Positions 3,468 through 43,582 of a stretch of 44,233 nt of DNA are shown piece after piece. A program made the translations under genes and the position numbers. Each line of letters starts with the position of its first letter. Positions within the stretch are counted from its first letter, which is position 1. The notes beneath the pieces were generated by a model that did no database searches, was not told the DNA's origin, and worked only from the letters and a program-made list of their open reading frames with translations. Origin of the DNA: Candidatus Magasanikbacteria bacterium RIFOXYD2_FULL_41_14 (GTDB lineage Bacteria; Patescibacteriota; Patescibacteriia; Magasanikbacterales; GWA2-37-8). Where the stretch lies: the NCBI GenBank assembly GCA_001784475.1, contig MFRE01000022.1, forward strand, positions 1 to 44,233, written 5' to 3'.

Positions 3468-5273
3468 ATGTTTGGTAAGAAGCTGACATCAGGTTTTACA
3501 TTGGTGGAAGCGGTCGTGGCCGCCGCCATATTTTTGTTATTTGCGGTTGGAGTTTATGGCGGGTTGACTATGGTATTTAAAATTGTTTATCAGTCGCGTA
3601 TTAAAATTTTGGAAACAGCGATTTTGTCGCAAGAATTAGAAATTGCCCGCAATCTTCCCTATGACCAGGTGGGGATTATTAATGGTTCGCCGATTGGTTT
3701 GCTTCCGCACACAAAAGTTGTAACTCTTAATAACGTAAATTTTAGTTTAGTAACAACAGTGCGTAATATTGACGATCCATTTGATGGCACTATTGGCGGC
3801 TCGCCCAACGATACTTCGCCGGCCGATTATAAATTAGTGGAGATGTCGGCAATTTGTATTGGGTGTAATCAGCAGAAATTAATTAAGTTGAGTACGATTG
3901 TTTCGCCCAGACAATTAGAAGGCGCGAGCACAAATGGCGCGCTGTTTATTCAAGTTTTTGATCAAGAGGGTTTGCCTGTTTCGGGCGCTGATGTTCACGT
4001 TGTTAATACTGATTTAAATCCTAATTTAATTATTGATGATACTACCGACAGTAGCGGTTATTTGCGTATAGTTGATACGCCGACCGGTACACTTGCTTAC
4101 AATATCACGGTTTCTAAATCTGGTTATTCTTCTGATTACACTATCGTGGCCTCGGAATCAAACCCCAGTCCGGTCAAACCACCTTCTAATGTAGTTGCTC
4201 AAAATGTGACTGATATTGCTTTTTCAATTGATGAATTGGGTAGTATAAATTTTCATTCAGTTAGTACAATGTGCGCGGCAATCCCGAATGTCGGATTTAA
4301 TATTAAAGGTGCTAAGATGCTGGGGGTTGATCCGGATGTTTATAAATATGATCAAAATTTTACCACGGATGAATCGGGTGATAAAACTTTGAGTAATATA
4401 GAATTTGATAATTATCATCTGACGCCAACTGCCCTGACTTATGACATCGCGGGAACAATTCCGGCTTTTCCATTAAATTTTATCGCGGGCGCCAGTCAAG
4501 AGGTGACCGCTGTTCTCAAACCGCACACGGCCAATTCGTTATTGGTTAAAGTTTTTGATGCCGGCACGGGTTTACCATTATCGGACGCGACTGTGCATGT
4601 GACGGGGTCTAGTTATGACACCACAATTTTAACCGGTGTTGGTTATTTGAGACAGACCGATTGGACGGGCACAACTGGGCAAGTTATGTATATTGATGAA
4701 AGCCGATATTTTGCTAATAGTGGTACGATTAATGGGTCGGGTGCGACGGCTGGTAATGTTAAATTAAAAAAGGCCTCCATCAGTCCGCTCACTTATATTT
4801 CCAGCGGCAATTTGGAGTCATCCACTTTTGATTTTGGTTCTGCGGTTACTTTTCGCAATCTAGTTATTGATCCGCTGACGCAAGTGGCACAGACCGGGGC
4901 AGATTCTTTAAAATTTCAATTGGCAACTTCTAATTCTTCCACGCCGGTGAGTTGGAATTTTGTTGGGCCAGATGGCACTGCCTCAACATATTTTACCGCC
5001 TCAAATAATGTTGTCCCAGCCAGTTTAAGTGATAATCGTTATTTGCGGTACAAGGCCTATTTAAGCACGAATAATAATCGCTATACTCCGATATTGTCGG
5101 AAATTGCCGTCACTTATACGGTGACTTGCGCTCCGCCTGGTCAAGCATTTTTTAGTGGTTTAGCTGCCGCGAGTTATACTGTGGATGTCTCACGCAGTGG
5201 TTACGCGGCCAGTTCCGGTTCAATTTCTGTTTCTGGTAATTTGGATACATTTGTGAATTTGTCGCCTTTATGA
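3468..5273 (+). CDS. type IV prepilin-like protein with repeated carboxypeptidase-regulatory-like (Ig-like) domains
   Basis: N-terminus MFGKKLTSGFTLVEAVVAAAIF = class III prepilin motif; internal start preferred over 3426; repeats of SGADVHVVN...LPLSDATVHV type. Confidence 0.8.
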   Translation: MFGKKLTSGFTLVEAVVAAAIFLLFAVGVYGGLTMVFKIVYQSRIKILETAILSQELEIARNLPYDQVGIINGSPIGLLPHTKVVTLNNVNFSLVTTVRNIDDPFDGTIGGSPNDTSPADYKLVEMSAICIGCNQQKLIKLSTIVSPRQLEGASTNGALFIQVFDQEGLPVSGADVHVVNTDLNPNLIIDDTTDSSGYLRIVDTPTGTLAYNITVSKSGYSSDYTIVASESNPSPVKPPSNVVAQNVTDIAFSIDELGSINFHSVSTMCAAIPNVGFNIKGAKMLGVDPDVYKYDQNFTTDESGDKTLSNIEFDNYHLTPTALTYDIAGTIPAFPLNFIAGASQEVTAVLKPHTANSLLVKVFDAGTGLPLSDATVHVTGSSYDTTILTGVGYLRQTDWTGTTGQVMYIDESRYFANSGTINGSGATAGNVKLKKASISPLTYISSGNLESSTFDFGSAVTFRNLVIDPLTQVAQTGADSLKFQLATSNSSTPVSWNFVGPDGTASTYFTASNNVVPASLSDNRYLRYKAYLSTNNNRYTPILSEIAVTYTVTCAPPGQAFFSGLAAASYTVDVSRSGYAASSGSISVSGNLDTFVNLSPL

Positions 5274-10335: not shown

Positions 10336-10638
10336 ATGTTAGAACGAAGATATTATGTATACATTTTAGCCAGTCAGAAAAATGGTACTCTATATATTGG
10401 TTTAACAAATAATTTAGTCAAAAGAATTTATCAGCATAAAAATAATTTAATTGCTGGGTTTACAAAAAAATATAATGTTCACCAGTTGGTATACTATGAA
10501 GAATATGATAATATAAATATAGCCATAAGTCGTGAAAAACAAATGAAAAAATGGGAAAGAAAATGGAAGTTAGAGTTAATAGAAAAAGATAATCTATTGT
10601 GGCGAGATTTGTATAAAGAATTGAATCCGATATATTAA
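10336..10638 (+). CDS. GIY-YIG nuclease family protein (UPF0213/YhbQ-like)
   Basis: RRYYVYILASQKNGTLYIGLTNNLVKRIYQHKN; start placed at 10336 because upstream ORF lies in the repeats. Confidence 0.85.
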   Translation: MLERRYYVYILASQKNGTLYIGLTNNLVKRIYQHKNNLIAGFTKKYNVHQLVYYEEYDNINIAISREKQMKKWERKWKLELIEKDNLLWRDLYKELNPIY

Positions 10639-25715: not shown

Positions 25716-25851
25716 AAGAAGCGACCCAATAGTTTGGGTCGCGACTGAGGACTTGAACGCCGGAACAATATCCGCTCGCGCGGACGTGAGGCGGTGGTTA
25801 GACAAAATTTTCTCAAAAATTTTAGTCGAAACCAAGTCCTCTCCCCGGCAC
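25716..25851 (+). other. tRNA-3'-end-associated structured element (Leu copy)
   Basis: Downstream of tRNA: hairpin, antisense T-arm gaggacttgaac (25747-25758), GC hairpin, AAAATTTT hairpin, then direct copy caagtcctctccccggcac (25833-25851). Confidence 0.65.
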
Positions 25852-39888: not shown

Positions 39889-40058
39889 GTGCCCCCGGAG
39901 AGGATCGGCTTTGACTCAAATTTTCTTCCAAAAATTTGGTCTAGCCACCGCCTCCCGATCGCGCGGCGTCAGTTCGGCCGCGCGATATCGGTCCGGCGTT
40001 CGATCCTCTCGGTCGCAACCAAATTAAAACAATCCACATAAGTGGATTGTTTTAATTT
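39889..40058 (-). other. tRNA-3'-end-associated structured element (Arg-TCG copy)
   Basis: minus strand: hairpin, gagaggatcgaacgccgg (antisense T-arm), GC hairpin, AAATTTT hairpin, direct copy gatcctctccgggggcac. Confidence 0.65.
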
Positions 40059-40059
40059 G

Positions 40060-40131
40060 TGCCCCCAGAGAGGATCGAACTCCCATCTTCAGGTTCGAAG
40101 CCTGATGTCCTATCCATTGAACGACGAGGGC
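40060..40131 (-). tRNA. tRNA-Arg(TCG)
   Basis: GCCCTCGTCGTTCAATGGATAGGACATCAGGCTTCGAACCTGAAGATGGGAGTTCGATCCTCTCTGGGGGCA; loop CTTCGAA. Confidence 0.9.
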
Positions 40132-40163
40132 ATTGTTAAATAAATTGTTTTTTGTTATTTGCA

Positions 40164-40236
40164 CCTATCCACTCCGACGCTTCTCTCGCGAGAAGGTTGG
40201 AGCCCCGACCTTGCGTCGGGGTTGAACGACAGGGGT
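40164..40236 (-). other. 5'-half copy of tRNA-Arg(TCG) split in the D-loop by two hairpins
   Basis: minus: GTCGTTCAA-[CCCCGACGCAAGGTCGGGG CTCCAACCTTCTCGCGAGAGAAGCGTCGGAG]-TGGATAGG vs tRNA GTCGTTCAATGGATAGG. Confidence 0.6.
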
Positions 40237-40239
40237 TTA

Positions 40240-40272
40240 AAATACCCACCCGATAATTGGGCGGGTATTTTG
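40240..40272 (-). terminator. hairpin following tRNA-Lys
   Basis: aaaatacccgcccaattatcgggtgggtatttt. Confidence 0.6.
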
Positions 40273-40345
40273 TGGGCCGCCAGAGGATCGAACTCTGGAC
40301 CTTATCCTTAAGAGGGATCTGCTCTACCAGCTGAGCTAGCGGCCC
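40273..40345 (-). tRNA. tRNA-Lys(CTT)
   Basis: GGGCCGCTAGCTCAGCTGGTAGAGCAGATCCCTCTTAAGGATAAGGTCCAGAGTTCGATCCTCTGGCGGCCC; loop CTCTTAA. Confidence 0.88.
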
Positions 40346-40399: not shown

Positions 40400-40486
40400 T
40401 TTCTCGCCCCGTAGAGAACCAGCGGTTCTTCTACCGGGGAGCTAGCGGCCCGTAAGTATTTGTATTTATGATAATCTCATTTAACC
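40400..40486 (-). other. 5'-half copy of tRNA-Lys plus its upstream sequence, D-loop hairpin insertion
   Basis: gagctagcggcccgtaagtatttgtat at 40333-40359 repeated at 40439-40465; aatctcat[c/t]taac also repeated; hairpin ccccgtagagaaccagcggttcttctaccgggg. Confidence 0.65.
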
Positions 40487-43222: not shown

Positions 43223-43268
43223 GTCCTCGTAGTTTCCGCCAAATGCGGACCCGCCTCGGGCGGGTAAT
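43223..43268 (+). other. 5'-half copy of tRNA-Arg(CCG) split in the D-loop by palindromic hairpin
   Basis: GTCCTCGTAGTTT (identical to tRNA 43356-43368) -[ccgccaaatgcggacccgcctcgggcgggt]- aatg. Confidence 0.65.
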
Positions 43269-43428: not shown

Positions 43429-43582
43429 AAAAATATCAGAATTTTCTGATATTTTTATCGGCACGAATCGAACGGGAAAGGGTGAAAACGGGAGTTTTCA
43501 CTCACGGAGGAAAGTCCACGAAAACCCGAAGGTTTTCGTGTGAGGAAAGAATAGACGACGTGAGATTTCGCGCCGAGGGCAC
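43429..43582 (+). other. tRNA-3'-end-associated structured element (Arg-CCG copy, different core)
   Basis: hairpin aaaaatatcagaattttctgatattttt, antisense T-arm cacgaatcgaacg, two strong hairpins, direct copy gatttcgcgccgagggcac (43563-43582). Confidence 0.65.

Follow-up and report, generated by a model that had tools for sequence, protein, structure and literature searches.

The described systems closest to the elements reported here are the mobile-ORF (mORF) endonuclease elements of fungal mitochondria, which are known from atp6 in Allomyces and from atp6, atp9, cox2 and nad3 in Glomus (PMC3630166). The proposed resemblance lies in an endonuclease ORF within an essential gene, a substitute gene end that is supplied, and a displaced native end beyond the ORF. 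However, mORFs involve the C-terminal ends of protein genes in mitochondria, whereas here both the 5′ and 3′ ends of bacterial tRNA genes are involved. The present elements also differ from mORFs (PMC3630166) in that their GIY-YIG ORFs are very small, the displaced copy contains hairpins, and many forms lack an ORF.

Three other systems share part of this anatomy. In Caldiarchaeum, a 5′ fragment of tRNA-Thr occurs with a 1.8-kb mobile element, so that there too mobile DNA separates a tRNA 5′ fragment from an intact tRNA downstream (PMC3293823). That case is a single archaeal locus of recombinase type, whereas here many tRNAs, GIY-YIG ORFs and hairpin-split copies are involved. Fungal and sponge mitochondria have double-hairpin and repetitive hairpin elements, likewise short double hairpins inserted in RNA genes and intergenic regions, but these are not reported to split displaced tRNA copies next to homing ORFs (PMC2800124). 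Within the same bacterial radiation, CPR rRNA insertion sequences also place homing endonucleases, a few of them GIY-YIG, in RNA genes; these insertions are mainly LAGLIDADG and group I introns within rRNA genes, and tRNA is unmentioned (PMC11270868). In the open-access papers searched, we found no bacterial GIY-YIG elements with tRNA-end copies, and their novelty is provisional.

The split copy at tRNA-Arg(TCG)

The window, meaning the whole 44,233-nt stretch analysed, carries on its minus strand tRNA-Lys(CTT), a terminator hairpin, CCCCTGTCGTTCAA, two hairpins, TGGATAGG, an AT-rich spacer and tRNA-Arg(TCG), in that order (see table). The 5′ part of tRNA-Arg(TCG) is duplicated 32 nt upstream of the gene, and two abutting hairpins interrupt the D-loop of the duplicate, just as the initial annotation had described and placed it. 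The split copy spans approximately tRNA positions 2-23 (14 + 8 nt), with mismatches in its acceptor part. Its exact blocks of 9 and 8 nt, together 17 nt, adjoin each other in the intact gene, where GTCGTTCAA is directly followed by TGGATAGG. The annotation's further claim, that such a split 17-nt match is unlikely by chance, was borne out: when the 300-nt flank upstream was shuffled 20,000 times with dinucleotides preserved, no 9+8 chain arose; a looser 6+6 chain appeared in 219 of 5,000 shuffles and is not rare. The split copy is real, and chance is ruled out.

Features at the tRNA genes of the window, with coordinates counted from its first base
Feature	Position	Strand	Remarks
First piece of putatively displaced tRNA-Arg(TCG) 5′ copy	40222..40235	-	CCCCTGTCGTTCAA
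Hairpin 1	40203..40221	-	CCCCGAC-GCAAG-GTCGGGG; CCCCGACGCAAGGTCGGGG
Hairpin 2	40172..40202	-	CTCC..CTTCTC-GCGA-GAGAAG..GGAG; CTCCAACCTTCTCGCGAGAGAAGCGTCGGAG
Second piece of tRNA-Arg(TCG) copy	40164..40171	-	TGGATAGG; remainder of D-loop
AT-rich spacer	40132..40163	-	32 nt; GIY-YIG ORF occupies the equivalent place in relatives
Intact tRNA-Arg(TCG)	40059..40131	-	
Intact tRNA-Lys(CTT)	40272..40345	-	
5′-type copy of tRNA-Lys(CTT) positions 1-13	40439..40451	-	GGGCCGCTAGCTC; leader likewise duplicated, extending to 40485
Hairpin at broken D-arm of tRNA-Lys copy	40407..40439	-	
5′-type copy at tRNA-Arg(CCG)	43223..43235	+	GTCCTCGTAGTTT, then hairpins
Terminator-like hairpin	40020..40059	-	between tRNA-Arg and 3′-side element
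3′-side element at tRNA-Arg(TCG), family A core	39898..40010	-	opens with inverted T-arm copy, 40010-39998 (-)
Displaced native tRNA-Arg 3′ end	39889..39907	-	CGATCCTCTCCGGGGGCAC; overlaps last pairs of A core
3′-side element at tRNA-Arg(CCG), family B core	43462..43571	+	tRNA end repeated directly at 43567-43582 (+)
3′-side element at tRNA-Leu(TAG), family A core	25746..25842	+	tRNA end repeated directly at 25833-25851 (+)

In the predicted fold, the two tRNA pieces of the split copy pair together, CCUGUC with GAUAGG, and so close both hairpins (-36.2 kcal/mol, z -4.2); folding predictions make the insert far more stable than shuffled sequence. The stability of this fold, the closure of the hairpins by tRNA pieces, and the same topology in an ORF-less two-hairpin copy at Pro(tgg) of genome G006 would all suit a functional, structured leader RNA, maintained by selection, with a role in the regulation or processing of tRNA-Arg. 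We nevertheless consider such a leader very improbable, given how patchy and fast-changing the insert is. The orthologous insert in the sister genome G001 reads GCCCTTGTATTT, two hairpins, CAAT, AT-rich spacer and tRNA, and thus has the same anatomy, but with hairpins unrelated to the focal pair. Most relatives carry no insert between tRNA-Lys and tRNA-Arg.

The gap between these two genes is 4-40 nt in relatives and often consists of the terminator alone, which suggests that the left copy occupies the native start of tRNA-Arg. A partial copy adjoins the intact gene. Compared with the tRNAs of relatives, the left copy shows no closer match than the intact gene, so either may be the native one, and displacement on the 5′ side is a proposal. 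In G001, tRNA-Lys comes after its upstream gene with no left copy in between.

Searches with the focal insert gave little beyond the locus itself. It holds no ORF in the ORF list, and its own genome contains no second copy, hairpin 1 alone recurring, away from tRNAs. In phage records, matches were limited to the tRNA-Lys gene or its neighbourhood. When the insert and the cores of the 3′-side families A and B described below were compared with Rfam 15, only tRNA and rRNA reached the gathering score, and looser thresholds gave weak matches far under it. A self-splicing intron is not indicated, with an intact tRNA-Arg(TCG) downstream of the insert and no Rfam intron match. The palindrome of hairpin 1 is also present in a dispersed intergenic repeat, ATTCCGAGCGATAGTTTACCCCGACCTTGCGTCGGGGAGGAATCT, of the same genome (L002 and L004, near 1500, with no tRNA close).

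Partial copies and small GIY-YIG ORFs at other tRNA genes

Forty-four tRNA genes of the genome were scanned as stretches around the tRNAs. Upstream 5′ copies accompany approximately 12 of them (Val(tac), Pro(cgg), Asn(gtt), Asp(gtc), Pro(ggg), Gly(tcc), Lys(ctt), Ser(tga), Arg(ccg), Arg(tcg), Glu(ctc) and Glu(ttc)), some of the weaker ones being identified by eye from their anatomy. Downstream 3′ copies accompany approximately eight (Pro(cgg), Arg(gcg), Arg(tcg), Ser(tga), Arg(ccg), Leu(cag), Ser(cga) and Leu(tag)). On a score of at least 12 alone, 7 of 44 pass on each side, compared with 0.7% (5′) and 0.4% (3′) in controls that set tRNAs against the flanks of other tRNAs. The systematic comparison of every tRNA that the initial annotation had proposed finds copies at many tRNAs, both in this genome and in relatives, so the focal copy is not the isolated decayed duplicate that the annotation had named as the contrary outcome. 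The annotation put forward no mechanism; the GIY-YIG association and the 3′-side families emerged from the present analysis.

Several of these copies share the two-hairpin form. An ORF-less example lies at Glu(ctc) of the same genome, and one similar two-hairpin insert occurs at Val(tac) in both G000 and G085. The tRNA-Val(tac) insert at L009 (near 1400-1450) includes an N run bordered by a repeat, so its apparent length is provisional. Displaced tRNA-Asp copies in four genomes (L020, L183, L100 and L144) have their anticodon arm swapped for the hairpin TCCCGACTNNGTCGGGA.

Other copies carry a gene. This ORF-bearing form consists of a hairpin-split copy, a small GIY-YIG ORF (~80-110 aa) and, 28-63 nt beyond the end of the ORF, the intact tRNA. 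It is present at Asp and Pro of the same genome, and the hairpin-split left copy with its ORF was seen at Ser(gga) (L214), Glu (L217), Leu (L200), Ser (L159) and Asn (L207), as well as at L197 and L180. At Ser(gga) the order is GGAGAGTTCGCATA, two hairpins, GTGGTCT, ORF and tRNA, and at L217 the tRNA-Glu copy is split by a hairpin nearly identical to focal hairpin 1. At L199, a displaced tRNA-Asp has double hairpins in the D-loop and T-loop alike. All four ORFs tested against PF01541 score well over the cut-off, and an alignment of the ORFs retains the GIY-YIG catalytic positions.

Among 39 small GIY-YIG ORFs in four genomes, 17 have a same-strand tRNA 28-63 nt downstream, where 0.11 would be expected, and a further five have one just upstream. 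None has an opposite-strand tRNA nearby, and the remaining 17 lie away from any tRNA. Three of the four genomes were chosen as GIY-YIG-rich, and the fraction may differ elsewhere; this complete count supersedes an earlier one (20 + 8 of 76 tRNA-adjacent) from a partly hand-picked sample. The window contains an extra small GIY-YIG ORF at 10351-10572 (+), approximately 8.9 kb from the nearest tRNA.

Replication slippage might instead have duplicated tRNA 5′ ends in tandem, with subsequent decay, the hairpins being dispersed palindromes that later entered a defunct copy and no nuclease taking part at this locus. Leader sequence inside some copies (Lys, Pro(ggg) and the Glu(ctc) tandem unit) and the likeness of hairpin 1 to palindromes of intergenic repeats elsewhere in the genome are in keeping with this. 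However, slippage does not predict what is seen at many tRNAs and in several genomes, namely copies that stop in the loops and are interrupted by hairpins, many of them accompanied by a GIY-YIG ORF at the corresponding position; we regard it as unlikely.

Proposed origin of the displaced ends

We propose that the focal copy probably derives from a selfish, tRNA-gene-invading element, either as its ORF-less remnant or as a non-autonomous form. The simplest account, by analogy with fungal mitochondrial mORFs, would be homing with gene-end replacement, here acting on tRNA genes. A small GIY-YIG endonuclease would cut the tRNA gene in a conserved loop, the D-loop in the 5′ type and the T-loop in the 3′ type. 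Repair would then import the element together with a substitute for the severed tRNA end, and the tRNA would stay functional. The displaced native end would remain outside as a partial copy, its broken loop bearing a hairpin or double hairpin that perhaps spoils the cut site. In the focal case, the displaced 5′ end of tRNA-Arg(TCG) would be the segment 40235-40164, its replacement being what now forms the 5′ half of the functional gene. Many sister elements do encode a homing-type endonuclease (PF01541); because the focal insert has neither an ORF nor a second genomic copy, we infer, rather than observe, its own mobility.

tRNA genes are essential, and tRNA loops are nearly universal. Near-universal D-loops and T-loops would admit one nuclease type to many tRNA genes, and elements with access to nearly every tRNA gene, able also to restore the invaded end, would have a general means of parasitising minimal genomes. 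They would also be a source of altered tRNA sequence, and would explain why tiny GIY-YIG genes and partial copies of tRNAs are so abundant in these reduced genomes. Such putative elements number dozens on tRNA genes in this bacterial group, many of them encoding a tiny DNA-cutting enzyme.

Element families A and B on the 3′ side

Two families of ~110-nt elements, A and B, lie on the 3′ side of tRNAs. At tRNA-Arg(TCG), the displaced end CGATCCTCTCCGGGGGCAC is identical to the tRNA-Arg end of G001, and the end of the working tRNA-Arg differs by one base. G001 represents the empty 3′ site: a segment of ~170 nt is missing there, and tRNA-Arg(TCG) meets the same flank directly. Covariance models gave 57 matches to family A in 14 and ~80 matches to family B in 26 of the 86 genomes of the order; across the phylum, family A was found in 28 of 286 sampled genomes, weak matches being counted without inspection.

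The copies are tied to the tRNAs that they follow. A same-strand tRNA precedes 56 of 60 inspected A and B copies, with more than 20 isoacceptors represented, and the host tRNA's own 3′ end is clearly copied at the element end in 46 of 54 scored cases. The family A tail agrees with its own tRNA at a mean of 16.3 of 18 positions, against 9.5 for other tRNAs, and complementarity of the 5′ arm is 9.6 of 12 to its own tRNA against 7.6 of 12 to others. Direct repeats of tRNA ends from the T-loop look like att sites and, together with the published 5′ fragment and recombinase (PMC3293823), would accord with integration by a tRNA-targeting site-specific recombinase, as proposed for the archaeal tRNA-Thr fragment. 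Yet an att site fits one tRNA, whereas these related cores are found at more than 20 isoacceptors and in most cases carry a copy of the end of the tRNA that hosts them. Moreover, the short inserts examined hold no recombinase ORF, and the ORF that inserts do contain is GIY-YIG. We consider recombinase integration highly unlikely.

The fold of family A is strongly supported by covariation. Both sides have changed in 30 of 35 pairs and 96% of cells are paired, a level reached by 0 of 500 shuffles, with slid controls pairing at 34-42%; fitting of the alignment to the model favours the fold somewhat, and the test concerns family A alone. This covarying core at tRNA 3′ ends amounts to a structured element without an Rfam match. 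Mean core identity is 0.82 between different tRNAs of the same genome (n=16 pairs), 0.69 between the same isoacceptor of different genomes and 0.68 otherwise, kinship among close genomes being uncorrected. The closest resemblance is thus among cores of a single genome, which argues that family A copies have moved between tRNA genes; isoacceptor-specific homing lineages are rejected for this family by the same values (0.82 versus 0.69). The repeat mostly begins 19 nt ahead of the tRNA end and runs 0-58 nt beyond it, so that a fixed-length target duplication is likewise rejected for family A.

In one genome, G018, tRNA-Ser(gct) is followed by a GIY-YIG ORF and then by a copy of its own 3′ end, and the right border of this insert, AAAATTTTAGTCGAAGCCGA, is also the border of the family A copies of G018. 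This hints that family A may be a non-autonomous relative of a GIY-YIG element. Tentatively, at rather less than even confidence, we entertain a broader reading in which the elements form a new class of selfish DNA in bacteria. They would move among many different tRNA genes, land in the universally conserved D-loops and T-loops and rebuild the host tRNA's own end, with tiny GIY-YIG nucleases that would act in trans as well, on A and B as ORF-less structured satellites.

A hairpin, GCCAATAGTTTGGC (CGACCCAATAGTTTGGGTCG and variants), separates the tRNA end from the core in copies of A and B; it was seen in the window at 25728 (+) and at L016, L078, L069 and L070, and may be a component common to both families. 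Contig C18 of the same genome ends within a family A copy (L080, bases 5012-5095), which suggests that family A repeats break assemblies.
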